The notes under the pieces are model-generated. The model was given only the letters and a program-made list of their open reading frames with translations. It was not told where the DNA came from and searched no databases. Both the position numbers and the translations under genes were made by a program. From positions 1 to 55,435 of IMG/VR virus record IMGVR_UViG_3300025326_000038: a DNA stretch of 55,435 nucleotides; one strand, 5' to 3'. Within the stretch, counting starts at the first letter, position 1, and each line of letters starts with the position of its first letter. This document shows, in pieces, positions 1-55,302 of the stretch. This DNA is from a virus.

Positions 1-792
1 CCCGCCGCGCCGACCACCGCCCTCGCCGTGATCCCACACGGCTTGCCGTTCTCCGAAGAGGAGTGGGCGGCGCTCTCACCCACGGAGCAGCAGGAAGCGA
101 TCGCCTTCTTCCGGGAGGAGACGGCGGCGACGACGGAGGGGTTGCAGGTCACCTTCCCCCGTGCGAAGTTTCCCACCTCCGGGTCGTCGTTCTGGGAGCT
201 GCCAAGCGTGACCGGGGAACCCGAGGCGGCGAAGGAGATCGAGGGCGTCGTCGTCTGCAAGCAGAACACGCGAGCCTGGTGGATGGGGGCCGATGGCAAG
301 ACCTCCTTCGAGATCACGAATACCGCGCCGACGTGCTCCTCGCTCGACGGGATCACCCCTGTCGAGAGCGAAGATCGTCAGGCGGAAACATGCGCGAAAT
401 GCCCGCTTGCGAAGTGGGATACCGGCAAAGACGGCCGCGGGCAGGCCTGCAAGTCGCGGCTCAACGTGTTCATCCTCCGTCCGGGCGACGAGATCCCCAC
501 GCTGATCTCCTTGCCCCCGACGGCCATCAAACCCTTCGGCGCCTACGCCGTGGGCCTGCGCCAGAAGAAGTCCGCCCTGATCGCGGTGACGACGATCTTC
601 GGGCTCCAGGATGCGAAGTCCTCCGGCGGCACGGCCTACAAGGGCATCGCGCTCCGGATGGGCAAGCCGCTCACGTTCACCGAGATGAAAGCGGCGCGGA
701 CGATCTCCGACGCCTTCGAGTCGGCGATGCGGTCGCGGGGGATTCAGGTCGACGAAGCGGCGGCGGAGGACCCGGAGCCCGGCGAGGCCTAG
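1..792 (+). CDS. Four-cysteine conserved phage early protein, copy A (5' end cut by window edge)
   Basis: The reading frame is open from base 1. Alignment with the complete copy at 45,999-46,787 shows only about five N-terminal codons are missing. The middle carries a likely zinc knuckle (TCSS, then CAKCP, then QACK). It is followed by a strongly conserved block containing SLPPTAIKPFGAYAVGL, then a helical C-terminus ending in an acidic tail. The layout resembles small nucleic-acid-binding proteins of phage replication regions, but I do not recognise the family with certainty and no catalytic motif is visible. Relative to copy B it has extra residues before the first cysteine (MGADGKTSF) and lacks the HNH gene that follows copy B. 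Confidence 0.75.
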   Translation, partial: PAAPTTALAVIPHGLPFSEEEWAALSPTEQQEAIAFFREETAATTEGLQVTFPRAKFPTSGSSFWELPSVTGEPEAAKEIEGVVVCKQNTRAWWMGADGKTSFEITNTAPTCSSLDGITPVESEDRQAETCAKCPLAKWDTGKDGRGQACKSRLNVFILRPGDEIPTLISLPPTAIKPFGAYAVGLRQKKSALIAVTTIFGLQDAKSSGGTAYKGIALRMGKPLTFTEMKAARTISDAFESAMRSRGIQVDEAAAEDPEPGEA

Positions 793-795
793 CCC

Positions 796-1359
796 GTGTC
801 CTTCTGCCCCGGCTGGTTCCGCCCCTGGTGCGAAGCCCACAGTCTCAACGCTGATCGCCCGGACCGCTGGCCGGACGCGGCGCGCGCGGCGTTCATGGCC
901 GAGAAGCTCCGGCGCTTCCGCCTCCACTGGGCGTGGATGTCCACGCTCGGCCAACCCGCGATCATCCGGCAGCAGTCCGGGCGAGACGAGTTGATCCGGC
1001 AAGTGCGGCGAGACCTCAACGATGCCCTGTCGGAGCCACCCGCCAGCCTCGGGCGGCACGACCACCTGAGCCCGTACCGGAGAGAACCGGCGGGCAATGC
1101 TTCGGAGAGGGAAGCGGACATCCTCGCCAGCTACGAGGTCCGCACGTATCCCGATGGCTCGCGAGAGATCATCCTGCCCCACCGCCCGTCGCTCGCCGAA
1201 CGCCAGCAGGCGAAGCTTGACCCATGGAGACAGATCCCAATTGAGGACGTGTTGGCCTGGGTTTCGGAGACGCCGGACCGGATCAACCTGAGCGAGAGGA
1301 CGGCGCGGTGCCTCTACTGGCTGGAAAAGGAGTTTGGAGGTCCCCATGCTACCGTGTGA
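796..1359 (+). CDS. Conserved phage protein, 187 aa, copy A
   Basis: The GTG start lies three bases after the previous stop. The N-terminus is rich in Trp, Pro and Cys (SFCPGWFRPWCEAHS). A basic helical stretch and an Arg/Pro-rich middle follow. The last 50 residues (PIEDVLAWVSETPDRI) look like a small helical domain. A homologue of the same length occurs in copy B, differing mainly in the middle (residues about 85-110). No function is recognised. It is translated in series with its neighbours and overlaps the next gene by 14 bases. Confidence 0.75.
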   Translation: MSFCPGWFRPWCEAHSLNADRPDRWPDAARAAFMAEKLRRFRLHWAWMSTLGQPAIIRQQSGRDELIRQVRRDLNDALSEPPASLGRHDHLSPYRREPAGNASEREADILASYEVRTYPDGSREIILPHRPSLAERQQAKLDPWRQIPIEDVLAWVSETPDRINLSERTARCLYWLEKEFGGPHATV

Positions 1360-1621
1360 CGGCTGCGCATATCGTCGATCGATCCCGGGCGGTACCCACA
1401 TCATCTGTACGTATTTCTGGGACCCGGAGAGTACGGAGGCGAGCCCGCTGACTCATCGCGTGTCGCCACGGGTGGCGCAGTGGTACTGCTTCCCGTTCAA
1501 TTACGATCCCCTGTGGGGACCGGACACCTGCGCGGCACGTGCGGAGATCGCTGACCCGGCCACCACGCAGCCTCAGCATCCGCTCTTCGATCTCTTCTCA
1601 ATCCTCGGACGACGCCTCTAG
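1346..1621 (+). CDS. Small cysteine-containing conserved protein, 91 aa, copy A
   Basis: The ATG was chosen because AGGAG/GGAGG-like sequence precedes it and because the copy-B homologue starts at the same residue. The N-terminus MLPCDGCAYRR and ICTYFWDP place Cys in a CxxC-plus-Cys pattern that could bind metal. The rest contains WYCFPFNYDPLWG and CAARAEIADP. The family is unrecognised. Its TAG overlaps the GTG of the next gene by one base, which suggests coupled translation. Confidence 0.7.
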   Translation: MLPCDGCAYRRSIPGGTHIICTYFWDPESTEASPLTHRVSPRVAQWYCFPFNYDPLWGPDTCAARAEIADPATTQPQHPLFDLFSILGRRL

Positions 1622-1787
1622 TGCCCACCTCCCCGAAATACTGCGAGTGCGGCCGGAAGATCGTCGTGCCGGTGCGGAAGCGGTGCAGGGGGGCCGCGTG
1701 ATGCCGGGCCGGGCGGCGCGCAAGGGACGGCTGCCGAAGCACGATCTCTGCCGGGCGTGCTGGAAGGCGCTGGGGTTGGGAAGATGA
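1621..1787 (+). pseudogene. Zinc-ribbon micro-gene, copy A, broken by a 1-base deletion
   Basis: The intact copy-B gene (48,055-48,222) encodes 55 aa with YCECG and CRACW cysteine pairs. Copy A begins the same way from a GTG, but one base is missing near 1684 (CGGTGC against CGGATGC in B). Translation then ends at 1701 after 26 residues. The second half (KGRLPKHDLCRACW) continues in another frame to 1787. Either a real inactivating deletion or a sequencing error would explain this. Confidence 0.7.
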
Positions 1788-1987
1788 AAACTTGGAAAGT
1801 GACGACCGCCTGTATGCACAAAACGATGCGACGCGGCTGTCTGTGCGCCCTGGTGGGAGTGACGACCGCCTGTATGCACAAAACGATGCGACGCGGCTGT
1901 CTGTGCGCCCTGGTGGGAGTGACGACCGCCTGTATGCACAAAACGATGCGACGCGGCTGTCTGTGCGCCCTGGTGGGGAAGAAGTGA
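1784..1987 (+). CDS. Possible repeat-encoded Cys-rich peptide, 67 aa
   Basis: An ATG overlaps the preceding TGA (ATGA). The frame runs through three copies of a 60-base repeat, giving a 20-residue peptide unit (ACMHKTMRRGCLCALVG at its core) three times before a stop. The frame is open only because the unit length is a multiple of three, so the ORF may be an accident of the tandem repeat. The competing frame through the same repeat feeds directly into the HTH gene downstream. No counterpart exists in copy B. Low confidence that it is expressed. Confidence 0.25.
   Translation: MKTWKVTTACMHKTMRRGCLCALVGVTTACMHKTMRRGCLCALVGVTTACMHKTMRRGCLCALVGKK
1799..1978 (+). repeat. 60-bp direct repeat, three uninterrupted copies
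   Basis: Three head-to-tail 60-bp units begin at 1799, 1859 and 1919. They are identical to one another except at the last base of the third copy. There are no spacers. The units are open in several frames. In copy B the flanking sequences meet directly, so the block plus about 15 leading bases (ATGAAAACTTGGAAA) is an insertion or expansion in copy A, placed just before the GTG of the excisionase-like gene. Confidence 0.95.
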
Positions 1988-2358
1988 TCCCCATTCCCAC
2001 GCTCGCCGAGGTCGTCGCCGACGGCGCCAAGCTCGCCGATCTGCCCTTCACGGCGCTCTGGGCCTTGCTCCGTGACGTGGGGCAACTGGAGAAAGAGATC
2101 ATCGCGGCGATGCTGCCGGCGGCCAACAAGACTATGGCATCTACCGCCATACCGGAGGACCGCGCCCTGACAATCGAGGAAGCGGCCCAGCGACTCCGAA
2201 TCGCCCCGGCAACGATGCAGAAGTGGCTGAGAAAACCGCCGTATGATGCCGCCGTCGTGGTGCGCTCACGCACCTGCGTCAGAGTGAGCGCCCAGCGACT
2301 GGACGACATTCTTCTCAACGGCGGGGCGCGGCCTCGCAGGAAGGCGGTGTCGGGATGA
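1984..2358 (+). CDS. Excisionase-like HTH protein, copy A
   Basis: The GTG start matches the start in copy B. In copy A a frame from a TTG at 1792 also runs through the 60-bp repeats in phase and could add 64 residues (SDDRLYAQNDATRLSVRPGG repeated). Residues about 60-115 form a MerR/Xis-type HTH (LTIEEAAQRLRIAPATMQKW), followed by an Arg-rich wing (VVVRSRTCVRVSAQRLDDIL). It directly precedes and overlaps the integrase gene (ATGA), which fits a recombination directionality factor or integrase regulator. No experimental family member was matched. Confidence 0.65.
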   Translation: MIPIPTLAEVVADGAKLADLPFTALWALLRDVGQLEKEIIAAMLPAANKTMASTAIPEDRALTIEEAAQRLRIAPATMQKWLRKPPYDAAVVVRSRTCVRVSAQRLDDILLNGGARPRRKAVSG

Positions 2359-3440
2359 GAGGGCAAGGGCGGATCTATCATCGAGGGGACGCACTGTGGA
2401 TTTCCTGGTACGCGAAGGGTGACCGGAGAGAAGCGGTCAGCACACTCGTCGGCAAGCCCGCGGGCAGCGTGACCTATGACGACGCCGTCAAGGCGCTCAA
2501 GCGACGGCTCGAGCAGAAGCGTGAGCAGCTCCTGCGCGGCTCCATCCTGCCGAAGCGCACGGAGCGCTTGACCGTTGCCCAGCTTCTCGCGGAGTACAAG
2601 ACCCACCGCCTGATCCATGGCGTCAAGCGCCCGGTGGACTTCGCCTGCACGATCAAAGCGCTCGGCACCTGGTGGGGGCATCTCGTGCCCGCCAGGCTGA
2701 CGACCGAGGACCTCGAACGGGAGATCCAGGCCAAGCTCGCCAAAGGCTTCGCCCGGGGGACGATCGCCCAGCGCCTCAGCGGGCTCTACGCGGCGCTCCG
2801 GTGGGCCAAGGAGAGGCTGCCGCGCGTCCCGGACAAGCCGCGGATCTCCGTGCCGCTCGGGCCCAAGGCGGTCTGGACGCCGGCCGAGGTTGACGCGCTC
2901 TGTGCCGAGGCCAAGCCCTGGCTCGCGGACATCGTGCGCTTCGGGCAGCTGACCGGGTGGCGGATCTCGGAGGTGCTCGACCTCTCCTGGGACCGCGTGG
3001 ATAGCAAGCGCGGCCTCCTCTTCCTGGACGAGACGAAGACCGACGACCCGCGGGTGCGGCCGATCGAGCCGGCCATGGCGGATCTCCTCGCCAGGCGGAC
3101 CACGGCGCGACGGCTGGGTTGCGCGCTCGTGTTCCACGTGGACGGATTGCCGGTCGGGGACGACCGCTTCCACCGGGCCTTCCGGGCGGCGTGTGGCCGG
3201 GCGAAGCTCGGGGTCAGGCGGTTCCATGCCTTCAGGAACAGCGCCTATGACACCCTGCTCTTGAACGGCGTGGACCTCTTCACGGCCATGGAGCTGATCG
3301 GGCACAAGTCGCTCAGCTCGGCGCGCCGGTACAGCCGGCAGAACGTCGACCGGATGCGAGGCGCGCTCGAGCGGGTGGAGGCAGCACGCTCGGCACAGCC
3401 GAACACTCCCAGCACAGCAGTCCTGCCATTCACCCGCTGA
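2355..3440 (+). CDS. int: Tyrosine recombinase (phage integrase), copy A
   Basis: 361 aa. The N-terminus is an Arg/Lys-rich arm-binding-like region, followed by a SAM-like core-binding domain (about 70-165) and a catalytic domain. The visible catalytic set is Arg in TGWRISEVLDLSW (about 202), Lys in ETKTDD (about 228), HAFRN as the HxxR box (about 291-294), His in LIGHKS (317) and the nucleophile Tyr326 in SARRYS. It would perform site-specific integration and excision with the upstream HTH protein. It is about 95% identical by eye to the integrase at 48,587, so both elements should target the same attachment site. Confidence 0.95.
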   Translation: MRGQGRIYHRGDALWISWYAKGDRREAVSTLVGKPAGSVTYDDAVKALKRRLEQKREQLLRGSILPKRTERLTVAQLLAEYKTHRLIHGVKRPVDFACTIKALGTWWGHLVPARLTTEDLEREIQAKLAKGFARGTIAQRLSGLYAALRWAKERLPRVPDKPRISVPLGPKAVWTPAEVDALCAEAKPWLADIVRFGQLTGWRISEVLDLSWDRVDSKRGLLFLDETKTDDPRVRPIEPAMADLLARRTTARRLGCALVFHVDGLPVGDDRFHRAFRAACGRAKLGVRRFHAFRNSAYDTLLLNGVDLFTAMELIGHKSLSSARRYSRQNVDRMRGALERVEAARSAQPNTPSTAVLPFTR

Positions 3441-3453
3441 ATCAGAGGGCTTG

Positions 3454-3648
3454 ATGCCGAACGCGGCAATCTGGGGTAGAAGGAAGCGCGCCCTAGCAGG
3501 AGTCCTGCCAAGGACACCCCAGCTAGGTAATCAGGTACTTCGGCCAGGGGCCGCCTCTCCCGGGCGGTCTCTGGTCGCCTCTGTCGGACGTAGATTCGCT
3601 GCACATTTGCCTCACAGCGCCCCGTACAGGCTCCTGCACACGGCATGA
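3454..3648 (+). CDS. Small basic protein downstream of integrase, 64 aa, copy A
   Basis: The ATG is preceded by an AGAGGG-like ribosome site, and the stop overlaps the next start (ATGA). The product is Arg-rich (MPNAAIWGRRKRALAGVLPR). The copy-B counterpart has exactly the same length with no indels. Several base differences are silent (GGT/GGC, CGG/AGG, CCA/CCC, GGG/GGA), which argues for coding. The DNA also contains a GCAGGA-G-TCCTGC palindrome around 3515, so a second role as an integrase-related site is possible. Function unknown. Confidence 0.5.
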   Translation: MPNAAIWGRRKRALAGVLPRTPQLGNQVLRPGAASPGRSLVASVGRRFAAHLPHSAPYRLLHTA

Positions 3649-4142
3649 CCCAGCCAGACATCGCCTCCCAGCAGCCCAGGTTGTGCCCCAGGGACGGGTA
3701 CGCGCTGGTCTTGGATGATGTGATCGCCCGGACGGCGATCGACGCGGGCTGGCCCGCGGTGGCGCTCTGGCGGTGCAGAATGGGCCATAGCCACCGCGAC
3801 TGGCCGCCCGAGCAGATGGCCGCCCGCCGGACGGACCCTTCGGTGCGGAAACCGTGTGCTGTGTGCGGCCGACCCCTGCCCAGAAAGCCACGGCTCCACG
3901 GCTCCGGTGGTCGCAAGTATTGCCCCGGTCCCTGCACGGCTTTCGTCAAGCGTGAACGAGGCCTCTGGCTCTGGCATCACGGGCCGCCGTTCGTGATCGA
4001 GGCGCAGCCCTGGTATAAGGGCCCGCTCTACCAGGCGCCGCCGCTGCCCCTGCTCGACCCGCTGGCCGGCCGGATGCCGCGCGACTGGGCGGCGGGGTGG
4101 AGGCGCGTCCACGGCGTCGAGGCACCCGAGATAGCCGCATGA
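3645..4142 (+). CDS. Zinc-finger-like conserved protein, 165 aa, copy A
   Basis: Metal-binding signature of KPCAVCGRPLP followed by a second cysteine pair in KYCPGPC, with CPRDGYALV near the N-terminus. The C-terminus (FVIEAQPWYKGPLY and LDPLAGRMPRDWAAGW) is nearly identical in copy B, while residues about 50-65 vary. It may be a DNA-binding accessory protein. It is the last gene shared by both copies before their cargo diverges: copy A continues with glycan-type enzymes, copy B with a DNA methyltransferase. Confidence 0.65.
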   Translation: MTQPDIASQQPRLCPRDGYALVLDDVIARTAIDAGWPAVALWRCRMGHSHRDWPPEQMAARRTDPSVRKPCAVCGRPLPRKPRLHGSGGRKYCPGPCTAFVKRERGLWLWHHGPPFVIEAQPWYKGPLYQAPPLPLLDPLAGRMPRDWAAGWRRVHGVEAPEIAA

Positions 4143-4801
4143 TCGACGCCCCGATCGGCGCAACGAACCCCGTCCGGTGGCAGCAGGCCGAGCCCGAGCG
4201 CTTCGGCCTCATGTCTGGCTACGCTTGGCGGCACGATCCGCGGCACGTTCTCTTCACCCTGGCCCGCTACAAGTTCGTCGCGAAGATGCTGGCCGGCAAG
4301 GGGCCCATCCTCGAGATCGGATGCGCGGACGGGTTCGGGACGCGGCTGGTCGCGCAAGGGGGAGATCTCGTCGTCGGGATCGATGCGGATCCCGTGATGC
4401 TGCACTCAGCCGAACGGACGCGCGGAACCTTTCGTATCGCCTTCCGCAGGCATGATCTGCTGGACAGTCCCTTCGGTCAATTCAGGGGCGCCTTTGCGAT
4501 CGACGTTCTCGAGCATATCCCGCCGAGCCGCGAGGAGGACTTCATGCGGCACGCCGCGCGATCCCTTCACCTGGCGGGCATCTTGATCCTCGGCACGCCG
4601 TCACGCGAGTCCCAACCGTACGCCTCCGAGCCGAGCCGTGAGGGCCATGTCAACGTCAAGACGCAGGCTGCACTCCGTGCCTTGTGCGAACGCCATTTCA
4701 CGACAGTCTTCCTCCTCGGCATGAACGATGAGGTCGTGCATACCGGCTTCGGGCCGATGTGCCACTACCTCTGGGCGCTCTGCGTGGGACCCCGGGGATG
4801 A
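4139..4801 (+). CDS. Class I SAM-dependent methyltransferase
   Basis: 220 aa with motif I LEIGCADGFG (about 58-67), an acidic motif II end (VVGIDADP) and FAIDVLEHIPPS. This is the arrangement of small-molecule or sugar-type methyltransferases (Methyltransf_11/23-like) rather than DNA MTases, because no DPPY or NPPY is present. It overlaps the GT41 gene by four bases, so the two probably act on the same glycan or glycosylated product. The pair occupies the position held by a DNA methyltransferase in copy B. Substrate unknown. Confidence 0.8.
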   Translation: MIDAPIGATNPVRWQQAEPERFGLMSGYAWRHDPRHVLFTLARYKFVAKMLAGKGPILEIGCADGFGTRLVAQGGDLVVGIDADPVMLHSAERTRGTFRIAFRRHDLLDSPFGQFRGAFAIDVLEHIPPSREEDFMRHAARSLHLAGILILGTPSRESQPYASEPSREGHVNVKTQAALRALCERHFTTVFLLGMNDEVVHTGFGPMCHYLWALCVGPRG

Positions 4802-6267
4802 GCGCGCCTCTGATCGCCTCGACGCGCCGCCCGCAGACGTCCCACGAACGTGCCGTCGCCCTTGCCCTCGCCCGCCGTTGGGAGGACGCCGCGCAGGCGT
4901 TCCGCGCCATCCTCCGGCGCCAGGACACCGGTGAGATCCGCCAGGCGATTGCGACCTGCCTCATGTGCCTGCACCGGACCGAGGAAGCGATCACAGAGTA
5001 TCGGCGGGCCCTCAAGCGCGATCCGACGCTCGTCCGGTCGCGGAACAACCTGATCTTTCTCCTCGATCATCAGCCGTCGACGACGATCGCGGACGCGTGG
5101 CGGGAGCGGCACGCCTGGTGGAAGATCCATGGTGAGCCGCTCGCCCCACAGTGTCTCCCGCACGAGAACCGACCGGACCCTGAACGGCCTCTCCGCGTCG
5201 GCTATGTCTCGGCCGACTTCCGCGGTCACTCAGCGGCCTTCGGGTTCGGGCCCGTGGTGCTGCGCCACACCGACGCGATCGCCGTGTACTGCTACTCGCT
5301 GTCGAACCGGGATGATGCGATGACCGATCTCTTCCGTGCGCGGGCCGCCGGGTGGCGCGATTGCGTGGATTCCACACCCATCGATCTCGTCGACCTGATC
5401 CGTGCCGACGCGATCGACCTGCTCGTCGACCTCTCCGGGTTTTCCGCGGGAAACAGTCTTCAGACCTTCTGCTACAAGCCCGCGCCAGTGCAAATCACAG
5501 CCTGGGGGTACGCCACAGGGACCGGCTGCAAGATCTTCGACGCTTTCTTCGCCGATGCCTACACGGTGCCGCCGCATCTCGAGCGGTACTACACGGAGCC
5601 GGTCATGCGACTGCCCTCCATCGTGCCGTACATGGGCCCGGGGTATGCGCCAGGACCGGCTATCCGTGATCCGGGCGCGCCATTCACGTTCGGCTCGTTC
5701 AGCCGGCCGGAGAAGTGCACGCTGCCGACACTCGCCCTCTGGGCCGATGTCCTCCGCCGCGTGCCCGGATCCCGGCTACTCGTCAAGGACAACGGCTACG
5801 GGCGGGCCGCAACCGCCGAACGCTTCCGCCGGGATCTCGGGCGGCGCGGGATCGATCCGACGCGCGTGGATGTCCGGGGGTTCTCGGAGCACGCCGAGCA
5901 CCTGGGCGCGTATGCCGAGGTGGACTTCGTGCTCGACACGACACCGCACACGGGCGGGATCAGCTCGCTCGAGGCGCTGTGGATGGGCGTGCCGATGGTG
6001 ACACTGCCCGGGGAACGGACCGCCTCGCGACTTTCCGGCTCCTTCCTGGCGACACTCGGGATGCCCGCGCTGATCGGCCATGATGCGAAGGGCTACGTCG
6101 AGATCGCCGTGGCATGGAGCGGGCGGCGGGCCGAGCTCGCGGCACTCCGGAGGACGCTCCGCGAGCGCTTGGTCGCTTCACCCATCAATGCCGGCTACGT
6201 GGTCGCGGTTGAAGCCGCCTATCGCCAACTCTGGCGCGCCTGGTGCGCGCGACAGGCGCCCCGATGA
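4798..6267 (+). CDS. TPR-linked GT41 (SPINDLY/OGT-like) glycosyltransferase
   Basis: 489 aa. An N-terminal helical region with TPR-like pairs (about 15-85: ARRWEDAAQAFRAIL, then HRTEEAITEYRRALKRDP) precedes the GT41 catalytic half. That half shows GYVSADFRGHSAAFGF (about 135), PAPVQITAWGYATGTG (about 230) and PHTGGISSLEALWMGVPMV (about 382), matching the nucleotide-sugar-binding regions of O-GlcNAc transferases. It probably adds a sugar to protein hydroxyls in the cytoplasm. Coupling to the methyltransferase upstream suggests sequential modification, possibly of virion proteins or a host surface protein. Absent from copy B. Confidence 0.85.
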   Translation: MSAPLIASTRRPQTSHERAVALALARRWEDAAQAFRAILRRQDTGEIRQAIATCLMCLHRTEEAITEYRRALKRDPTLVRSRNNLIFLLDHQPSTTIADAWRERHAWWKIHGEPLAPQCLPHENRPDPERPLRVGYVSADFRGHSAAFGFGPVVLRHTDAIAVYCYSLSNRDDAMTDLFRARAAGWRDCVDSTPIDLVDLIRADAIDLLVDLSGFSAGNSLQTFCYKPAPVQITAWGYATGTGCKIFDAFFADAYTVPPHLERYYTEPVMRLPSIVPYMGPGYAPGPAIRDPGAPFTFGSFSRPEKCTLPTLALWADVLRRVPGSRLLVKDNGYGRAATAERFRRDLGRRGIDPTRVDVRGFSEHAEHLGAYAEVDFVLDTTPHTGGISSLEALWMGVPMVTLPGERTASRLSGSFLATLGMPALIGHDAKGYVEIAVAWSGRRAELAALRRTLRERLVASPINAGYVVAVEAAYRQLWRAWCARQAPR

Positions 6268-6605
6268 GTGATGCCCACGCCGAAGGGCACTGGACCCACG
6301 ACCAGCGCGTGCAGGAGATCGAGCGGCTGGCGAAGGTGCTTGCCGCGCAGATCGGCTGCACGTGCCCCATGATCTACTCCCGCGGCGGGCACCCACACGA
6401 CGCGGACTGCGCCCGCGAGCACGTCCTCCGGCTGCTCATCACGGGTCTCATCTTCTGGGACGGCTACCTGGCGTGGCTCTCGATGTCCCAGGTGGCGCGC
6501 ACGCTCGCCGAGGATGTCGCCGCGCAGTTCCAGCCAGATGATCTCGAAGGGAAGCTCGCGCGGTCCGCAATGGGTTATGCGCGCTGGAAAGCCGGGATGG
6601 CATGA
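6264..6605 (+). CDS. Hypothetical protein, 113 aa
   Basis: Starts in an ATGA overlap. It has an N-terminal helical region and a Cys/His-rich centre (IGCTCPMIYSRGGHPHDADC), followed by a hydrophobic, possibly membrane-associated segment (LLITGLIFWDGYLAWLSMS) and a polar helical tail. It has no copy-B partner and no recognised family. It is part of the copy-A-specific cargo. Confidence 0.6.
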   Translation: MSDAHAEGHWTHDQRVQEIERLAKVLAAQIGCTCPMIYSRGGHPHDADCAREHVLRLLITGLIFWDGYLAWLSMSQVARTLAEDVAAQFQPDDLEGKLARSAMGYARWKAGMA

Positions 6606-7114
6606 CCGTCACGTGTCCCCGGCAATGCGGCTCCGAAGGGTTCGAGAATCCCGGCGCGCTCGCGGCCCACCTGATCGACGCCCACGACATGGCCGGGAGC
6701 GCCGCGCTGGCGACGGCGCGGGAGGTCGCCGGGCTGAGCCGCGCGTATCGTCCTCCGAAACCTGTCCTTCCGAACGTATCCACGACAAAGGAGGCTCCCA
6801 TGACCTGCAAGATCTGCGGCGGTGACCATCGCTCCGACAACAAGATCTGCCCGAAGCACGGTGGCACGAAAGATGGGGGGGGCAACATGGCCAGTAAGCC
6901 GCGTGCCGTCGCGAAGAGAAAGCCTATCACGCGACGGCACCCGAAGCCGCCGAAGAAGGCCGCCGCCACTTCGGGCAACGGCCTGCTCTCGGAGCTCGAC
7001 GCGCTCCGGTCCACGGCGGCCGCGCTCGAGCCGCTGGGCCCGGTCGAGCGCCTGCACGTCCTGGCGTGCGTGTGCAAGCTGCTCGCGATCGACACGTCCG
7101 ACCTGGCCTCGTGA
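6602..7114 (+). CDS. C2H2 plus Cys4-like zinc-finger protein, 170 aa, with internal start
   Basis: The N-terminal module resembles a C2H2 finger (CPRQCGSEGFENPGALAAHL, then DAHD). A second metal site follows (CKICGGDHRSDNKICPKHGG), then a Lys/Arg-rich linker and a helical C-terminus. An in-frame ATG at 6800 is preceded by an ideal AAAGGAGG ribosome site, so a 104-aa product lacking the first finger may also be made. It may bind nucleic acid. Copy-A-specific. Confidence 0.6.
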   Translation: MTVTCPRQCGSEGFENPGALAAHLIDAHDMAGSAALATAREVAGLSRAYRPPKPVLPNVSTTKEAPMTCKICGGDHRSDNKICPKHGGTKDGGGNMASKPRAVAKRKPITRRHPKPPKKAAATSGNGLLSELDALRSTAAALEPLGPVERLHVLACVCKLLAIDTSDLAS

Positions 7115-7134
7115 CCGCGTGATCGCTTTCATTC

Positions 7135-7175
7135 TCGCCGCGAAGCGGCTCCGGCAGGCGGTGCTGCCGCTATGA
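7135..7175 (+). pseudogene. Residual 3' end of the DNA methyltransferase gene
   Basis: These 41 bases match the last 13 codons of the copy-B methyltransferase (ending AAKRLRQEVLPL and stop), with about three mismatches. Here the encoded tail is AAKRLRQAVLPL. The rest of that gene is missing, and the sequence before the match is unrelated. The next gene starts in the ATGA at its stop, as in copy B. It is an exchange scar showing that copy A once had the methyltransferase or recombined at this point. Confidence 0.75.
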
Positions 7176-7639
7176 GGAAGCCCCGCGAGCAAGACACGGT
7201 GGCGGCGATCCTCCAGCTCCTCCACGCCCATCGCATTCCAGCATGGCGGATCAACACAGGCGCCACGAAGATCGGCGGACGGTTCATCCGGTTCGGCGCG
7301 GTGGGGATGAGCGACATCCTTGCGCTTCGACCTAGAACAGTTATTGAGCTTTTGCCGCATGACGGGCATGGCGTAAGCCATCCTGCTGGCTGCGGCGGAC
7401 AGTGTAACGGTCCGATGCTCGGGCAGTGGATAAGCATCGAGGTCAAGAGCGCGACAGGAAAGACAACGCCCGCCCAGCAGAGCTTTCTGGATCAGGTGAA
7501 CGCGGCGGGCGGCAGAGCGTTTGTGGCACGGAGCGTGGATGACGTGGCCCGCGAACTCGATTTCCCACCCTCCCCCACCGTCGGCGGCCGGCCGATCTCG
7601 TGGGCGACGGCGCGGCGGATCAGCAAGGATGGGCCATGA
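7172..7639 (+). CDS. VRR-NUC domain nuclease
   Basis: 155 aa. It shows the VRR-NUC pattern: an N-terminal helix (AAILQLLHAHRIPAWRIN), the acidic residue in GMSDILAL (about 46-53), the E-x-K pair in IEVKSATGK (about 89-97) and the following AQQSFLDQVNAAGG helix. The PD-(D/E)XK fold family includes phage structure-specific or Holliday-junction nucleases, so replication or recombination processing is likely. The last 23 residues (VGGRPISWATARRISKDGP at the end) are almost identical to the end of the unrelated RusA-like protein in copy B. Confidence 0.85.
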   Translation: MRKPREQDTVAAILQLLHAHRIPAWRINTGATKIGGRFIRFGAVGMSDILALRPRTVIELLPHDGHGVSHPAGCGGQCNGPMLGQWISIEVKSATGKTTPAQQSFLDQVNAAGGRAFVARSVDDVARELDFPPSPTVGGRPISWATARRISKDGP

Positions 7640-7833
7640 GCGCCTGCCCGAATAATCTGGCGGACGCCACGCGCTACTTCCGGCGGCTGTTCCTCCTACA
7701 CCACCTAGCGGCAGCCGGGACGATCACCGCGACCGCCACGCAACTCGGGACGCAGCGGACGTACATTACCCGCCTCAATCGGCAATTGGACGTCGAAGGC
7801 CCCCGATCTTCGAAGCGCCCGGAACGGACATGA
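7636..7833 (+). CDS. Small HTH protein, 65 aa, copy A
   Basis: Helix-turn-helix of Fis type near residues 30-50 (TATQLGTQRTYITRLNRQL), with a helical N-terminus (NNLADATRYFRRLFLLHHL). It is likely a DNA-binding regulator. The copy-B homologue has the same length and differs at about eleven positions. It starts in an ATGA overlap with the nuclease gene and ends in an ATGA overlap with the next. Confidence 0.75.
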   Translation: MSACPNNLADATRYFRRLFLLHHLAAAGTITATATQLGTQRTYITRLNRQLDVEGPRSSKRPERT

Positions 7834-7976
7834 CGACACCGATGGATGATCTCAGCCCGAAAGCACGCGAACTCAAGCGGTTCCTGGAGCATCTCGTGAC
7901 CGTCCATGTGACGACCGATCTCGCAGGCGTGTCGGGGTGTGGGCAGTGCGACCACTTCAAGGCGGCGCTGGCATGA
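7830..7976 (+). CDS. Conserved micro-protein, 48 aa, copy A
   Basis: Acidic-helical peptide (MDDLSPKARELKRFLEHL) ending with a CGQC pair. The same length is kept in copy B (53,004-53,150), with only a few conservative changes, which supports real translation. Stop-start overlaps on both sides place it in the operon. No function recognised. Confidence 0.6.
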   Translation: MTTPMDDLSPKARELKRFLEHLVTVHVTTDLAGVSGCGQCDHFKAALA

Positions 7977-8116
7977 GCTCTGCTCGCTGCCTCGCCCGCC
8001 TTCTGACCCTCGCGGCGCTCGCCTGTCTCCTGGCCGTCTCCCTCTGGCCCGAGCCGGTCTGCCGGGCGTGCGGGGCGGAGATTTTGCGGGATAGCGTGCT
8101 GCTGAGGGCGCGGTGA
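7973..8116 (+). CDS. Small membrane protein, 47 aa, copy A
   Basis: An N-terminal basic patch is followed by one hydrophobic helix (LLTLAALACLLAVSLW) and then a CRACG pair. It is probably a single-pass inner-membrane peptide or has an uncleaved signal anchor. The copy-B version keeps residues 1-40 and differs only at the C-terminus, where the two copies' cargo diverges again. Confidence 0.55.
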   Translation: MSSARCLARLLTLAALACLLAVSLWPEPVCRACGAEILRDSVLLRAR

Positions 8117-8517
8117 TGGGATTCAAGTCGGGCCGGAAAGTGACGTTCTGCGCGGAGCGGCTCCAGCAGGCCCGCGAGTGCCGAGGATTGAGTCAGCGAC
8201 AACTCGCCGCAAAAGTCGGCGTGCATGTCGAGTTCGTCAAGGAATGGGAGAAGGGCGGCTCGCTGCCGAAGCGCGGCACGTTTTCAGTAGATCAAGTCGC
8301 CTCGCTGGCTCTCGCGCTCGGCTTTCCCGTCTCATTCTTCTACCAAGAGCCACCGCCTCCGCTCGGTCCTACCTCACTGGACTACCACGGCACCAGACTC
8401 GTCTGTGATGCCTGCGACGAGGATGTGGAGTCGTGGCAAGTCGTCGAAGCGAACGGACAAGACTTCCACCCTGAATGCTCACCGCCCCGTGATAGAGCGG
8501 GAGAGACCAAGCCATGA
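8116..8517 (+). CDS. XRE-family HTH regulator with C-terminal Cys motif
   Basis: 133 aa. A typical XRE HTH spans residues 12-70 (ERLQQARECRGLSQRQLAAK, then VEFVKEWEKG). The C-terminus carries a CDACDEDV pair with a later His/Cys (FHPEC), possibly a metal site. It may be a transcriptional regulator of the early operon. It is absent from copy B, where small unrelated genes occupy the site. A GTG three bases upstream is an alternative start. Confidence 0.8.
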   Translation: MGFKSGRKVTFCAERLQQARECRGLSQRQLAAKVGVHVEFVKEWEKGGSLPKRGTFSVDQVASLALALGFPVSFFYQEPPPPLGPTSLDYHGTRLVCDACDEDVESWQVVEANGQDFHPECSPPRDRAGETKP

Positions 8518-8864
8518 CCGCCCTTGATCGGCAGACGGCGCTGGAGCGGCTGTACGTGGCCGCGCTCAACATGTACAAACAGTACCGCGACGCTCCACGG
8601 GATATCGTCATGCAGCTTCGAGATGCTCTCATCGCCGTTGAGGAGGCCGCGCTGGAGGGGGAACTCAAGGAACGAATGGAGTGGTGGCGGGCTCGCTGGG
8701 AGAAGGAATGTGCCGACCTCGCCGACGCCCGCGCGGCGATTCGAGAGGCGGGCATATTGCTCCGCCATGCCTATGGTCCCGTAGAATCTGCGAAGCCGTG
8801 GACCGAATACGATCTATGGCTCGCCCTGCCCGCTGTCGTCGCGGCGTTGGAGGAGAAGAAATGA
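8514..8864 (+). CDS. Hypothetical helical protein, 116 aa
   Basis: Almost entirely alpha-helical and charged (KERMEWWRARWEKECADLADARAAI). Its last 12 residues (LALPAVVAALEEKK) match the end of a different protein in copy B (53,782-54,198), so the 3' ends are related while the 5' parts diverge. Function unknown. Overlaps both neighbours by ATGA. Confidence 0.6.
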   Translation: MTALDRQTALERLYVAALNMYKQYRDAPRDIVMQLRDALIAVEEAALEGELKERMEWWRARWEKECADLADARAAIREAGILLRHAYGPVESAKPWTEYDLWLALPAVVAALEEKK

Positions 8865-8890
8865 TGCTCTACCACGGGGACTGCCGGTGA
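8861..8890 (+). pseudogene. Nine-codon remnant resembling a DNA methyltransferase start
   Basis: The ATGA-coupled micro-ORF reads MMLYHGDCR and stop. M-x-LYHGDC is a very common N-terminus of phage N4/N6-type DNA methyltransferases, and the copy-B methyltransferase here begins similarly (VTLYRGDAL). The simplest reading is that a methyltransferase gene was replaced by the PAPS-reductase-like gene, leaving its first codons. Short match, so only moderate confidence. Confidence 0.35.
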
Positions 8891-9747
8891 TACGCCACGA
8901 TCCACAGGAGGTCCGCGAGAAGCTCGCTAGCCGAGTTGTCGTCGCGTCCATTAGCGGCGGCAAAGATAGTGCGGCGATGAGCCTCTATCTTACCGAGCTT
9001 GGCGTCGAACATCGGCGCGTGTTTGCCGACACCGGATGGGAGCACGCACTGACCTACAAGTATCTGCGCGGTCCGTTGACGGCACACATCGGCGCGATCG
9101 ACGAGGTGCGCGGGCCCCGACCAATGGACGATCTTATCCGCCACAAGAAGATGTTCCCGGCGCGGATCAAGAGATTTTGCACAGAGCATCTCAAGGTGAA
9201 GCCGTTACAAGCATACTTCTTGGCGCTGTCAGCCGAGGATGACTATGTAAACGCTATCGGCATCCGGCGCGGCGAATCGGTGGCGCGGGCGGCCGCCGTC
9301 GAGTGGGAATGGAGCGAGTCGTTCGACTGTGAGGTCTGGCGGCCCCTCGTAGAGTGGACCGAAACAGATGTGATCGAGATCCATCGCCGCCATGGCCTGC
9401 CGCCCAACCCGCTCTATCTCATGGGCGCGCGCCGTGTCGGCTGCTGGCCCTGCATCTTTGCCTCGAAAGCAGAAATCTCGTTGGTCGCAGAGCACGATCC
9501 GGCACGAATCGACACGATTCGCGCACTCGAAGCCGAGACCAACGCCAGTCGCATGGCGACGTTTAGCGCCCGTGGCGAGATGATGCGCTACCCGGCCACG
9601 TTCTTCACATTGCGCCCAGATGGCAAAACCCACGTAGCTGCGCCGATCGACGCGGTGGTGGAGTGGGCCCGTGAGAGCGGTCCGGAGCAGCCGACACTCT
9701 TTGACGAAGGCTGCATGCGGTGGGGCTTGTGCGATACGACGGAATGA
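8887..9747 (+). CDS. PAPS-reductase-family (PP-loop) enzyme
   Basis: 286 aa. The PP-loop SISGGKDSA (residues 22-30) binds the nucleotide phosphates in adenylating enzymes of the PAPS reductase/CysH/DndC group. Later features are FADTGWEHALTYKYL, KRFCTEHLKVKPL, GIRRGES and CWPCIF (a CxxC typical of the phage subgroup). The family activates by adenylation or reduces sulfo-nucleotides. Phage members are suspected of nucleic-acid or nucleotide modification, which is inference here. GTG start in a GTGA overlap. No copy-B partner. Confidence 0.8.
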   Translation: MIRHDPQEVREKLASRVVVASISGGKDSAAMSLYLTELGVEHRRVFADTGWEHALTYKYLRGPLTAHIGAIDEVRGPRPMDDLIRHKKMFPARIKRFCTEHLKVKPLQAYFLALSAEDDYVNAIGIRRGESVARAAAVEWEWSESFDCEVWRPLVEWTETDVIEIHRRHGLPPNPLYLMGARRVGCWPCIFASKAEISLVAEHDPARIDTIRALEAETNASRMATFSARGEMMRYPATFFTLRPDGKTHVAAPIDAVVEWARESGPEQPTLFDEGCMRWGLCDTTE

Positions 9748-9783
9748 GCCGCCGTCGCCGCGGCGGTGAAGGAGGAGGAGTCC

Positions 9784-9840
9784 ATGACCGCAACGGAATT
9801 CTTCGATCCTCAGACGGATAACCCCGCCCATGCCGACTGA
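9784..9840 (+). CDS. Possible leader micro-ORF, 18 aa
   Basis: An ATG after a strong AAGGAGGAGG ribosome site encodes MTATEFFDPQTDNPAHAD. It ends inside the next start region, overlapping that gene by 11 bases. The tail DNPAHAD resembles the end of the zinc peptide in copy B (DDPAHAD), so it may be the residue of a longer gene or a coupling peptide for the gene at 9830. Confidence 0.3.
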   Translation: MTATEFFDPQTDNPAHAD

Positions 9841-10195
9841 CGAGACGCCCAGCGCGGCGGCGGTGGAGAAGGCCGAGAGTCTCTGGACTGATCTTGCCAC
9901 CCATAACCGAGATACGTGGGAAAACGTCACGCTGATTGCCCTCGCCGAGCAGGCGCGGGAGATCGCCCAGCTCACGACGATCCTGACCGACGTGACCGCG
10001 GACGCGAACCTGAGCCATCAGCAGATCACGAGACTGGAAGAGGAGGTCGGGCGGGTGCGGGGGGCGCTGGAGAAAGCGAGGGAAACGATCCAGGCACTCC
10101 ATGGTCAAGAGGCATGGGATATCTACGAACAGCACTCACCCGAAATGAAACAGATTGACGCCGCCCTCCGCGTGACGCCAGAGGCGGGGGGATGA
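9830..10195 (+). CDS. Coiled-coil hypothetical protein, 121 aa
   Basis: Long heptad-rich helix (about residues 40-95: REIAQLTTILTDVTADANL, then LEEEVGRVRGALEKARETI), suggesting an oligomeric coiled coil. Only the first 10 codons (MPTDETPSA) are recognisable in copy B, where the gene is lost. Function unknown. Confidence 0.6.
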   Translation: MPTDETPSAAAVEKAESLWTDLATHNRDTWENVTLIALAEQAREIAQLTTILTDVTADANLSHQQITRLEEEVGRVRGALEKARETIQALHGQEAWDIYEQHSPEMKQIDAALRVTPEAGG

Positions 10196-10308
10196 TGATC
10201 CGCCTCCTCCGCCACGCCGCCCAGACCCCGCTGATGCTCGGCCTGCTCGATTATCCCGCGCCCGGCCAGGTCGTCGCCTGCCCCGTGCTCTTCCTCGACG
10301 GGCGGTAG
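10192..10308 (+). CDS. Micro-protein, 38 aa, copy A
   Basis: The C-terminal half (YPAPGQVVACPVLFLDGR) is identical to that of the 50-aa protein at 54,852-55,004 in copy B. The N-terminal halves are unrelated. This is another example of exchange inside a small gene. ATGA overlap upstream. Function unknown. Confidence 0.5.
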   Translation: MMIRLLRHAAQTPLMLGLLDYPAPGQVVACPVLFLDGR

Positions 10309-10313
10309 TCCTC

Positions 10314-10520
10314 ATGCCAGATGATCCGATCCTCTATCGCTTTCGCGTGACGTTTCTGAACGTGCACAACGGCGTCACGTACGAGGTGCTCGTCTCCACG
10401 CCGATACGGTGGAGAGCGCTCCCCCTTGCGCAGACGGCGCTCAGTGAGCACCTGACGAAGACGGCCGGGCAGGTTCACGACTGGGTGCATTACTCGACGG
10501 CGGAGCTCCCCAAGGCATGA
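10314..10520 (+). CDS. Conserved small protein, 68 aa, copy A
   Basis: Predicted beta-beta-alpha type small domain (VTFLNVHNGVTYEVLVSTP, then SEHLTKTAGQVHDWVHYST). The same length is kept in copy B, with changes concentrated in the first helix. Between it and the helicase gene lies a TTGACA conserved in both copies (10,533 and 55,213). That may be a -35 box for the helicase, although no good -10 is seen. Confidence 0.6.
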   Translation: MPDDPILYRFRVTFLNVHNGVTYEVLVSTPIRWRALPLAQTALSEHLTKTAGQVHDWVHYSTAELPKA

Positions 10521-10578
10521 CCCGAGGCCGACTTGACAACGGGTTCGCTCCCATGATAGCCGCCCTGACGCCTCGCTG

Positions 10579-12051
10579 ATGCCCACGCTCGCCGACTGGC
10601 TCACGTCGCGCATCCCCCCGAACAGCCTTGAGGCCGAGCGCGCGGTCCTGGGCGTCGCCCTCCTCGACCGCGCCGGGCCGGCCGCGCTCTGCCGGACGCT
10701 CCGCGCCGAGGACTTCTACGCCGAGAAGCACCGGCACATCTACGCGGGGATCGCCGCCCTCCTGACCGCCCAGAGCGCCGTGGATCTCCTCACGCTGCCC
10801 GAGACGCTGCGCCAGCAGGGGCACCTCGAGGAGATCGGCGGTCCGGCCTACCTCGGCCAGCTCATCGAGGAAGCGGCCCTCCTGACCGCCATGCCGGACT
10901 ACTGCCGGTTGATCCAGGACAAGGCGGCGCTGCGGGAACTGATCCGGCTCAGTACGGAGACCGTCCAGCGCGCGTATGAGAACGGACAGCCCGCGAGCGA
11001 GATCGCTGGACAGGCGACGACGGCCCTGGCCGCGGTCATGCGGAGCGCCGGGGGGCGACCGAGGCCTGCGATGCGCCCGCTCGCCGACCTCCTCGCCACG
11101 CCACCGGCGCGGCCCGTGTGGCTCGTGGAGTCGCTGATCCTGCAGGGCGCCAACGGCTGGATCGGCGCCGGGGCGAAGGTCGGCAAATCCCTGCTCGCCT
11201 TAGATCTCCTCCTCGCCTGTGCCCTCGGCCAGCCCTGGCTCGATACCTTCGCCGTCGCCCGTCCGCTCACGGTCGCCTTCGTCGAGGAAGAGGATTCCGC
11301 CTGGCGCGTCTACGAGCGGGCCACCCGGCTCCTGGCCGCGCGAGGCGCCCCCATGCCGACCGCGTTCTTTCTCACGGTCCGCACCGGCGTCCAGCTCGAT
11401 CAGGAAGCCTCGCTCGGCCCGCTGCTCGACCTCCTGCGCTCGCGCCCGGTGGATCTCGTGTTCTGGGACGTGTTCAACCGGCTCCACACGCTCGACGAGA
11501 AGCGCCCCGATCAGATGCTCCCGCTCCTCAAGCGCGTGGACCGCCTCCGCGATGAGTACGGGTGCGCCAACCTGATCGCACACCACGCCCGCAAGCCCGG
11601 CGTCTCCGGCCCCGACCTCGCCTCCGGCGGCCAACAGCTCCGGGGGCCGAGCGAGTTCTGGGGCTGGGCCGAGAACAGCCTGTATCTGAAACCGCTCAAA
11701 ACCAAGGGCGCGCTCATCGTCGAACCCGAGAGCAAAGACGCGCTCGTCGCCCCGTTCAAGGTGCACCTCGAGGACCTCGGGCCCGACAGCCGGCGGTGGG
11801 TCTATGACGGGGAGGTCGCGGCCAGGGTCAGTGATGGCGAGGCCACACGGACCCTCATCCTTGATGCCCTGGCACTCAATCCGATGACCGTCGGACAGCT
11901 CGTGGACCACACGAAAAAGACGGATCGGACCCTGAAGAAACATCTCGGCGCGCTCGAAGAAGATGGGGCCGTCGAGGCCACCAAGGAGCCCGGTCGGGCT
12001 GGGCGAAAACTGTGGATGCTGCGCTCTAAGACAGAAGAGCTGCCGTTCTGA
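10579..12051 (+). CDS. Replicative helicase: DnaB N-domain fused to RepA-type ATPase and winged helix
   Basis: 490 aa. Residues about 12-110 match the DnaB N-terminal helical domain (PPNSLEAERAVLGVALLD, AEDFYAEKHRHIYAGI). The motor resembles the RSF1010 RepA/AAA_25 hexameric helicases rather than DnaB: Walker A GAGAKVGKS (about 196-204), Walker B DLVFWDVF (about 292-299), AHHARK sensor-like motif and the GGQQLRGPSEFWGWAEN loop. The C-terminus (about 420-480) is a wHTH (PMTVGQLVDHTKKTDRTLKK). It likely loads at and unwinds the phage origin. The first 133 bases match the truncated copy at the right edge except for one base. Confidence 0.85.
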   Translation: MPTLADWLTSRIPPNSLEAERAVLGVALLDRAGPAALCRTLRAEDFYAEKHRHIYAGIAALLTAQSAVDLLTLPETLRQQGHLEEIGGPAYLGQLIEEAALLTAMPDYCRLIQDKAALRELIRLSTETVQRAYENGQPASEIAGQATTALAAVMRSAGGRPRPAMRPLADLLATPPARPVWLVESLILQGANGWIGAGAKVGKSLLALDLLLACALGQPWLDTFAVARPLTVAFVEEEDSAWRVYERATRLLAARGAPMPTAFFLTVRTGVQLDQEASLGPLLDLLRSRPVDLVFWDVFNRLHTLDEKRPDQMLPLLKRVDRLRDEYGCANLIAHHARKPGVSGPDLASGGQQLRGPSEFWGWAENSLYLKPLKTKGALIVEPESKDALVAPFKVHLEDLGPDSRRWVYDGEVAARVSDGEATRTLILDALALNPMTVGQLVDHTKKTDRTLKKHLGALEEDGAVEATKEPGRAGRKLWMLRSKTEELPF

Positions 12052-36659: not shown

Positions 36660-38099
36660 ATGACCGAGACCGGGCACGCGGGCTTCGAAGGCGCCGCCCC
36701 AGTTGTCACGATCGGCGCGGGCAATCCGGAGGCGCTCAAATATGGCAGGCTCTGGGCGCACCCTGAGTACCGCACGGTTGCGCCCGGGGAGCAGCTCGCC
36801 CAAGTGTTCCTCGCCCAGGCGCATCCGAAGCCCGGGGCGGAAGTCCTCGACTTCGGCTGCGGCACCGGCCGCGGCGCGCTCATGCTGGCGCTCCTCGGCG
36901 GGCTCAGGGTCACCATGCTCGATTTCGTGAACAACTGCCTCGACGAGGAGGTGCGCGCCATGCTGACGACGCAGGCGCACGCGCTCCGCTTCCTCAAGGC
37001 GGACCTCGAGCAGAAGCTCCCCGTCGCCGCGCCCTATGGATTCTGCACAGACGTCCTCGAACACATCCCGCCCGCCAAGGTGGACGCCGTCCTCAACAAC
37101 ATCCTGCTGGCCGCGCAACACGTCTTCTTCTCCATCTCCACGGTCGAGGACTCCTGCGGCGCATTGATCGGCGAGCCGCTCCATCTGAGCCTCCATCCCT
37201 TCGCGTGGTGGATGGAGCAATTCCGCAAGCGCGACTGCGTCGTCCACTGGTCGCAGGAGGTGGACGGCGCCTGCCTCTTCTACGTGTCGGCGTGGACCGC
37301 CGGGCCTGCGATCGTCGAGGCGGGGATTCTCAATGTGACCGATGAGCAGATCCGGGCGAACGTCCAGCACAACATCGCGCAGGGCTGGACGCAGGTGCAG
37401 CCGCATCCGACCAATGACATCGAAGTCATGATCCTCGGCGGTGGGCCGTCCATGCCGGCCTTCGAGGAAGAGATCAAGCAGCATCGCGCGCACGGCGTCA
37501 AGCTCATCACGCTCAACGGGGCGTACAATTGGGCGCTGGAGCACGGGCTCACCCCCTCCGCGCAGATCATCGTGGACGCGCGGGCGTTCAATGCGCGGTT
37601 CACCAAGCCGGTCATCGCCGGCTGCAAGTACCTCATCGCCTCCCAGTGCGATCCGGGTGTGTTCGAGGGACTGCCGATCGACCGCACGCTCATCTGGCAC
37701 ACGAGCACGGACCTCATCACGGATCTGCTCAACGCGCAGTACGAGAAGTGGTGGTACGTGCCCGGCGGGTCGACGGTGCTCCTCCGCGCGATCCCGCTGC
37801 TCCGTATGCTCGGGTTCACGCGGTTTCACCTGTACGGCTGCGATAGCTGTCTCGCGGCTGATGACGCGCATCATGCCTACGCACAACCCGAAAACGATGC
37901 AGCGGTTGTCGTGCCGCTCTCCGTCCAGGGCGACCGGATCTTCTACTGCCACCCGTGGATGATCGCGCAGGCAACCGAGCTACAAGATTTACTAAAAGTT
38001 TTGGGGGATGAGATAGAGATCAAGATTCGTGGCGATGGGCTCTTGGCGCATATACTCAATGTAGCCGCAGAGCTAGAGGACAATAAAGCAAATGCGTAA
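36660..38099 (+). CDS. Methyltransferase-DUF115 (Maf/MptE-like) fusion
   Basis: 479 aa. The N-terminal class I methyltransferase has EVLDFGCGTGRG (about 61-72) and CTDVLEHIPPAK. The C-terminal half (about 255-440) matches DUF115-type folds (MILGGGPSMPAFEEEI, LTPSAQIIVDAR), related to flagellin glycosylation Maf and pterin kinase MptE. DUF115 proteins act on sialic or pseudaminic-type sugars or pterins. Its location beside fibre genes suggests modification of virion or host glycans. The last 40 codons are noticeably AT-rich and meet the homing endonuclease gene. Confidence 0.75.
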   Translation: MTETGHAGFEGAAPVVTIGAGNPEALKYGRLWAHPEYRTVAPGEQLAQVFLAQAHPKPGAEVLDFGCGTGRGALMLALLGGLRVTMLDFVNNCLDEEVRAMLTTQAHALRFLKADLEQKLPVAAPYGFCTDVLEHIPPAKVDAVLNNILLAAQHVFFSISTVEDSCGALIGEPLHLSLHPFAWWMEQFRKRDCVVHWSQEVDGACLFYVSAWTAGPAIVEAGILNVTDEQIRANVQHNIAQGWTQVQPHPTNDIEVMILGGGPSMPAFEEEIKQHRAHGVKLITLNGAYNWALEHGLTPSAQIIVDARAFNARFTKPVIAGCKYLIASQCDPGVFEGLPIDRTLIWHTSTDLITDLLNAQYEKWWYVPGGSTVLLRAIPLLRMLGFTRFHLYGCDSCLAADDAHHAYAQPENDAAVVVPLSVQGDRIFYCHPWMIAQATELQDLLKVLGDEIEIKIRGDGLLAHILNVAAELEDNKANA

Positions 38100-38871
38100 G
38101 GGGTCGTGTCATTCAGAGGAAGCGCGGGCGAAGAACGCCGCAGCCCACCATGGCCGCGTCCCCTGGAACAAAGGCATCAAAATGAATGCTGATCAATGTG
38201 TGAACTTTGGAAAACGCCGTGGTTTCGCTCCCTGGAACAAGGGGCTATCTATGGCGTCTCCATCGGCCGAGACATTGGCAAAGAGAAGTGCAGCGCTTCG
38301 TGGAAAACCAAAGAGCATCGAATGGCGTGCGAAGATCGCCGCAGCTCTTTTAGGGAAAGCAAAATCGTTCGAGGCTCGGATTAGGATGAGTACCGCAAAA
38401 AAGGGGAGACCCGCGCACAACAAAGGGAAAATGATGTCCCCGGAGCAGAGGGCAAATAGCGGCAGGCGCCCAGGCTCCATTCCTTGGAACAAGGGCATTC
38501 CGACAGGGATAAGCCCGATGCGCGGCCCGCGGCCAGAATACAACGGCGTGCGCTTTCGTTCGTCCTATGAAGTGCGATTTGCCAAGGCGTTGGATGCCAG
38601 AGGAATCGGATGGCAATACGAGCCAAAGCGATTTGTCTTAGGCTCATGTTCATACCTTCCTGATTTTTTCGTACCCGAGACTGGAGCATTCTGGGAGATC
38701 AAGGGGTGGCATAACGCCAGCTCGCAAATGAAGGCGAGGCTCTTCCGGGAGTTGTATCCGGAACACCCCTTGATCATTGCAACACACGACGTCATCACCA
38801 TGATGGAGGGATCGACAAATGGCAGTCGGCACGTGGAAGATCTACGCTCGCCTGGGCTAGTCGCGCAGTAA
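38092..38871 (+). CDS. NUMOD3-PD-(D/E)XK homing endonuclease
   Basis: 259 aa. Three PWNKG boxes and two NUMOD3-like segments (PSAETLAKRSAALRGK, MSPEQRANSGRR) form the DNA-binding repeats. The C-terminal nuclease shows FRSSYEVRFAKAL, LPDFFVPE and WEIKGWHN, the PD-(D/E)XK core. It overlaps the upstream gene by eight bases. At its 3' end it overlaps, out of frame, exon 1 of the split gene and the first 23 bases of the group I intron. It probably drives spread of the intron, acting in trans. The DNA is AT-richer than its surroundings. Confidence 0.85.
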   Translation: MRKGSCHSEEARAKNAAAHHGRVPWNKGIKMNADQCVNFGKRRGFAPWNKGLSMASPSAETLAKRSAALRGKPKSIEWRAKIAAALLGKAKSFEARIRMSTAKKGRPAHNKGKMMSPEQRANSGRRPGSIPWNKGIPTGISPMRGPRPEYNGVRFRSSYEVRFAKALDARGIGWQYEPKRFVLGSCSYLPDFFVPETGAFWEIKGWHNASSQMKARLFRELYPEHPLIIATHDVITMMEGSTNGSRHVEDLRSPGLVAQ

Positions 38872-46787: not shown

Positions 46788-46789
46788 CC

Positions 46790-47242
46790 ATGGCAACACG
46801 CTGCGAGTGCGGATGCGGGCAAACTACGAACAAGGCCATCAAGACCTCGACGCGCCAGGGGTACGTCAAGGGGCAACCCATGCGGTTTGTCCATGGGCAT
46901 CACGCACGCGTCGATGCGGTCATGGCAAAGCAGCGACAGATCGCACGGCGTGGAGGGCCCGCATCCCCCGCGTGGCGCGGCGGCCGTTCGGCCTCCCATG
47001 CGGGCGGATATGTCCGCGTGTATACGGGGAAGCGTGGGGCCCGGACGCTTGAACATCGGGCCATCATGGAGAAAACCCTAGGACGACAGCTTTTGGCGGA
47101 TGAAGTCGTCCACCATCGGAACGGGAACAGAAAAGACAACCGATTGGAGAATCTCGAAGTCCTGACGAATGCCGCGCACGTCAAGCGCCATACAGTGGAG
47201 CGCTGGGCGAAGACTCGGGCCGCCGGTAAACGATCGCTCTAA
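46790..47242 (+). CDS. HNH homing-type endonuclease
   Basis: 150 aa. An N-terminal CECGCGQTTNKAIKTSTRQG zinc-like module is followed by a linker (GGRSASHAGGYVRVYTGKRG) and the HNH-3 core LEHRAIMEKTLGR, DEVVHHRNGNRKDNRLENLE (both His and the Asn visible). It sits between two genes that are adjacent in copy A and is absent there, so it is a recent mobile insertion in copy B. Confidence 0.9.
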   Translation: MATRCECGCGQTTNKAIKTSTRQGYVKGQPMRFVHGHHARVDAVMAKQRQIARRGGPASPAWRGGRSASHAGGYVRVYTGKRGARTLEHRAIMEKTLGRQLLADEVVHHRNGNRKDNRLENLEVLTNAAHVKRHTVERWAKTRAAGKRSL

Positions 47243-49675: not shown

Positions 49676-49688
49676 ATCAGAGGGTTTG

Positions 49689-55004: not shown

Positions 55005-55009
55005 GGCCG

Positions 55010-55216: not shown

Positions 55217-55302
55217 CAATGGACAGGCTGCTATGAATCGAGGACATTCCTCCCTCGTGACGAACGGGGATCTCGGATGATCGTGCGGAACTCCCCGCCC
55301 TG

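Follow-up and report, generated by a model that had tools for sequence, protein, structure and literature searches.

Three identical 60-bp direct repeats, arranged head to tail, occupy positions 1798-1857, 1858-1917 and 1918-1977 of the window, by which we mean the whole 55,435-nucleotide stretch of DNA that was analysed, a linear IMG/VR virus record. They lie inside a 200-bp segment that is present ahead of an excisionase-like gene in one copy of the integrase region (copy A) and absent from the other (copy B). Our preferred reading, with a probability of roughly 60%, is that the repeats form a neutral minisatellite, recently generated by duplication and slippage within a segment that varies between strains at a gene junction of a tailed temperate phage.

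The array (an unstranded feature) was delimited with TRF, a repeat finder and a boundary script. TRF reported positions 1798-1977 as 3.0 copies of period 60 with 100% matches, and the identity of the unit across all three copies was confirmed by script. Matching stops on both sides (A at 1797 against G at 1857; G at 1978 against A at 1918), and the array is therefore exactly 3.00 units long. The preliminary description had placed three perfect 60-bp repeats at 1799-1978; the repeats are as described, while their position was shifted by +1. At offsets of 10-300 bp, the longest self-match is 120 bp, whereas 20 length-matched first-order Markov sequences all gave values of 11-15 bp. A chance origin of the array is excluded. 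Positions 1798-1977 consist of head-to-tail units beyond chance, which is what defines a tandem-repeat array, and they are a genuine feature of the sequence as deposited.

The piece that distinguishes the two copies is larger than the array. BLAST, alignment, and an empty-site and shift test placed the segment at 1781-1980 (200 bp, unstranded), and the empty junction in copy B at 48215/48216; the self-BLAST pairs on either side are 797-1780 with 47243-48215, and 1981-4116 with 48216-50348. In order, the segment comprises 17 bases ahead of the array (1781-1797), the array itself (180 bases) and 3 bases behind it (1978-1980), and exceeds the array by 20 bp. The insertion had been described as missing from copy B, and BLAST and alignment confirm this, except that 200 bp, and not only the array, are missing. 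Joining the flanks of A reproduces the B sequence across the junction, and neither breakpoint can be shifted by even one base. Inspection of the ends and the shift test revealed no target-site duplication and no inverted repeats. An insertion sequence or transposable element was rejected on the grounds that the segment has neither terminal inverted repeats nor a target duplication. A 7-base direct repeat, GGGAAGA, found by eye to flank the segment (1778-1784 and 1976-1982), was likewise set aside, since an exact deletion between the repeats would not yield the B sequence.

The segment sits at the end of a zinc-ribbon-like small gene (1621-1787, + strand, by alignment with B), which in copy A is split by a 1-base deletion at 1683/1684; the C-terminal piece starts at ATG 1701 and terminates in the ATGA that it shares with the small ORF discussed below. 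In copy B, the gene is intact (48055-48222, + strand; 55 codons, with CxC and CxxC pairs), and alignment shows that it runs by a direct GTGA overlap into the downstream gene at 48219, with no insert. The B protein weakly resembles the end of thymidine kinase (E=0.0037, far under the cut-off). The difference between the copies is either a gain in A or a loss in B; it is not polarised, because no relative shares the upstream gene (25 stretches matched the pattern of the B gene, and none was a relative).

Window proteins were mapped onto the 46,475-bp phage record that contains homologue L002, in which many of them have no match. Window 2.4-33.5 kb is collinear with 19.5-46.4 kb there, with one local exchange (window 33.8-34.2 kb falls at 45.3-45.6 kb), and window 35.3-49.7 kb corresponds to 4.7-20.6 kb. 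The window thus goes once completely round a circular gene order of ca. 46.2 kb and then covers the locus again in diverged form. The record contains a single integrase match, onto which both window integrases map. With one integrase in the relative, and with the locus met again after a full turn, A and B look like alleles; to judge from gene order, they are probably alleles of two related phage variants, not paralogues. The initial idea of two copies within one genome is therefore less favoured: the gene order of the relative fits better with a single locus represented twice, by two related phages. The junction between the two phages may be either a mixed assembly or a concatemer. A word of caution applies more generally: two "copies" within one viral contig can be two joined variants. 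The diverged repeat of the integrase/early region covers window positions 1-10711 and 46014-55435. Between similar blocks, 4117-7133 of A and 50349-52065 of B are unlike (no BLAST match), and the A-specific stretch includes a 502-aa ORF (4759-6267) with no match in the relative's record.

The comparison of A with B also provides a measure of age. Between units, 0 of 120 sites differ, versus 4 mismatches per 160 bases between A and B just upstream and 12 per 120 just downstream. If divergence were 14%, 0 differences in 120 would have a probability of 1.4e-8; if it were 3%, the probability would be 0.026. Because the units are so much more alike than the two copies around them, we conclude that expansion or homogenisation of the units is recent, as the preliminary description had proposed. 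The route to three units, reconstructed from one variant with the array, would have two steps. One unit would first have been duplicated without microhomology, because the array contains no partial unit; two units would then have become three by replication slippage or by unequal recombination between the identical copies. Each extra unit would add 20 codons to the small ORF and leave the downstream frames and overlaps unchanged, 60 being a multiple of three. The chain of stops and starts (upstream stop, ATGA, small ORF, GTGA, helix-turn-helix gene, ATGA, integrase) is kept, and ribosomes that finish the small ORF could still reinitiate at the GTG of the next gene. Little or no phenotype is expected of the array, which is most likely neutral. 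The unit count is three in A, zero in B, and zero upstream of the corresponding gene in four other relatives; no alleles with one or two units were found among these, A being the single variant with the array.

A neutral minisatellite of this sort fits known kinds, and there is no reason to claim more. Small variable segments are described in bacterial species, where slippage or illegitimate recombination is often the explanation offered (PMC2884548). Like the bacterial minisatellites described there, the present case is a short strain-variable segment with direct tandem units, which slippage or illegitimate recombination would fit; unlike them, it comes from an uncultured phage, the edges of array and segment have no microhomology, and one array allele is known. 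Among the papers listed by literature searches, none dealt specifically with repeats ahead of xis/int, with phage tandem repeats, or with assembly collapse. Beyond this phage, the array matters little, except that it illustrates a recent tandem expansion, in frame, where two genes meet. In the same record, another in-frame array that is nearly perfect (42310-42394, 27 bp x 3.1, RGRVYTLTA repeats) sits near the C-terminus of the ORF at 41469-42416, and suggests that such expansions occur here.

No other occurrence of the unit was encountered. Elsewhere in the window, beyond the segment, no exact match of the unit exceeds 12 bases, a length reached once, inside the integrase gene of copy B, and the unit does not recur near the integrase. 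Searches of viral_contigs with an exact 39-mer and an exact 21-mer and with peptide patterns of both open forward frames of the unit gave no relative; neither did a degenerate pattern for MHKTMRRGC in genome_contigs, nor a distant blastn search against phages and plasmids. Records very near the window may be omitted from these collections. Against the L002 record, L004, L008 and L009, short matches of 9-14 bases only were obtained (E of 7.8 or more). Rfam reported nothing at the array locus.

Downstream of the segment lies the excisionase-like helix-turn-helix (HTH) gene (1984-2358, + strand, 124 aa, GTG start), assigned through PHROG 66 and homologue alignment, and linked by an ATGA overlap to the gene of a tyrosine integrase (2355-3440, + strand; PHROG 1, E=1.2e-38; PF00589, E=7.3e-19), so that the adjacent tyrosine integrase expected of the Xis family is present. 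The HTH protein matches PHROG 66 (excisionase and regulator) with E=3.4e-6. The pair is like phage xis-int modules (PHROG 66 with PHROG 1) in that an excisionase-like HTH gene overlaps a tyrosine integrase gene; it is unlike them in that the HTH protein scores below the cut-offs of HTH_17 (21.7 bits versus 27) and of the NCBIfam excisionase TIGR01764 (16.6 versus 28.8), and the module of the relatives has no array. A search for the HTH protein in genome_contigs returned 98 stretches, none of them a relative, and no host or prophage was found; the phages collection gave none. Downstream of the integrase, a block at 3441-3650 is conserved in A, B, L006 (the locus in the L002 record) and L007 (the locus in the L003 record), and much less so in L008; it is a candidate attP region. 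L008 itself contains, at 10182-10369, an array of a 15-bp unit (12.5 copies, 89% matches) that reaches the edge of the stretch examined.

The main rival to a recent minisatellite is an error of assembly in copy number. According to this explanation, which we judge unlikely, though it deserves to be taken seriously, the contig is a fusion of two related phages in which the assembler set the copy number, or the array itself, wrongly; even the whole 200-bp segment might be an assembly product. The window circles the gene order of the 46,475-bp relative and then repeats the locus in diverged form, so the contig may be mixed-strain; in addition, a single-base frameshift lies in A just upstream of the array, and the unit has no relative in any collection scanned. 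On the other hand, a loop in k-mer assembly requires that the unit-to-unit junction be present in real reads, and at least two tandem units are therefore expected even in the event of such a loop. No exact repeat is longer than 120 bp, and four of the five A/B indels over about 3 kb, the segment excluded, are multiples of three, which argues that the sequence is not generally error-ridden.

The array also falls within a small ORF (1784-1987, + strand, 67 codons), whose coding status, assessed from the ORF list, a codon score and a simulation, is uncertain. Its product would read MKTWK-(VTTACMHKTMRRGCLCALVG)x3-KK, and the 20-residue Cys-containing peptide that had been noticed in a second frame of the unit (VTTACMHKTMRRGCLCALVG) is indeed present. 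It is improbable, in our estimation, that this ORF is a genuine small gene, 27 codons long with a single unit, that was brought in as a cassette, so that tripling alters a selected Cys-containing peptide. The ORF is flanked on both sides by overlaps, ATGA with the upstream stop and GTGA with the HTH start, and such neat overlaps at both segment ends could mean that it is a selected gene; its frame also has the highest GC3 (0.75) of the three forward frames. Overlapping ATGA/TGATG stop/start pairs are described as coupling translation by termination-reinitiation (PMC6728339). The present locus resembles those pairs in that stop/start overlaps bound the small ORF at either end and a further one links the HTH gene to the integrase gene; it differs from them in that coupling is here predicted from sequence and that the small ORF is perhaps not a gene at all. 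However, an overlapping ORF that stops at the HTH start also appeared in 41,164 of 200,000 random 80-base inserts (21%), and in 2,101 of 200,000 the upstream stop was, in addition, as close as that observed. Following this simulation, which was done after the fact, the overlap architecture was rejected as proof of a gene, and it is suggestive at best. The codon score of one unit in the small-ORF frame, -0.38, is ambiguous between the true-frame and wrong-frame ranges (for 20-codon stretches taken from long ORFs, the median is 7.9 and the 5th percentile -3.5; for the two out-of-frame sets, the 95th percentiles are 0.03 and -1.2). Peptide patterns revealed no conserved homologues in viral_contigs or genome_contigs, and Pfam and NCBIfam gave no credible match.

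Lower still do we rate the chance that the repeats are a binding array, or a leader, that tunes the expression of the xis-like and int genes or the recombination they bring about. In its favour, the array immediately precedes the HTH and integrase genes. The best PDB fold matches of the HTH protein model (mean pLDDT 68, which is modest) include the DNA-binding proteins BldC and Tn916 Xis, though these matches are weak (E 0.1-0.2; E 0.15 for Tn916 Xis); BldC binds direct repeats. Against a role in binding or tuning, B and other relatives keep the HTH gene without the unit, and single units fold as RNA in an unremarkable way (z of -0.13 to -0.79). The proposal of a protein-binding array was not supported, given that neither B nor the upstream regions of four other relatives contain the unit, whose longest exact match elsewhere in the window is 12 bases. 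An operator or recombination binding array is likewise disfavoured, because the motif is not conserved at the same place in relatives that have the same proteins. The array might tune expression, though this is improbable.

The unit is, as the preliminary description pointed out, open in phase with the HTH gene, the ORF from TTG 1792 being 188 aa long (64 extra residues, 1792-1983, + strand). That this frame is open stands, and GGGAAG lies 8 bases ahead of the TTG, but its use as the N-terminus of the HTH protein in A is very doubtful. The HTH homologues of A, B, L002 and L003 (n=4) align from residue 1, encoded at GTG 1984, and the regions upstream of the gene in L006, L007, L008 and L009 are unlike those of A and B (the L009 homologue is distant, at 33% identity, and its start is less sure). 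Because the homologues align from GTG 1984 and share nothing upstream, this codon is most likely the start, and the repeated extension, absent from the homologues, is probably unused. The codon score of the unit in the HTH frame is -0.72, and a peptide-pattern search of viral_contigs found no relative of the 64 residues.

Least probable of all is a frame-neutral rheostat, in which each 60-bp copy would lengthen the coupled leader ORF and shift the number of ribosomes reaching the excisionase-like and integrase genes, with slippage varying the excision rate; were unit number to tune the excision genes in this way, it would be a simple means of diversifying prophage induction. Elsewhere in the window, Rfam identified a group I intron at 38834-39066 (+ strand, 68.6 bits), and the protein encoded at 36660-38099 (+ strand) contains MptE-like (E=1e-12) and methyltransferase domains.
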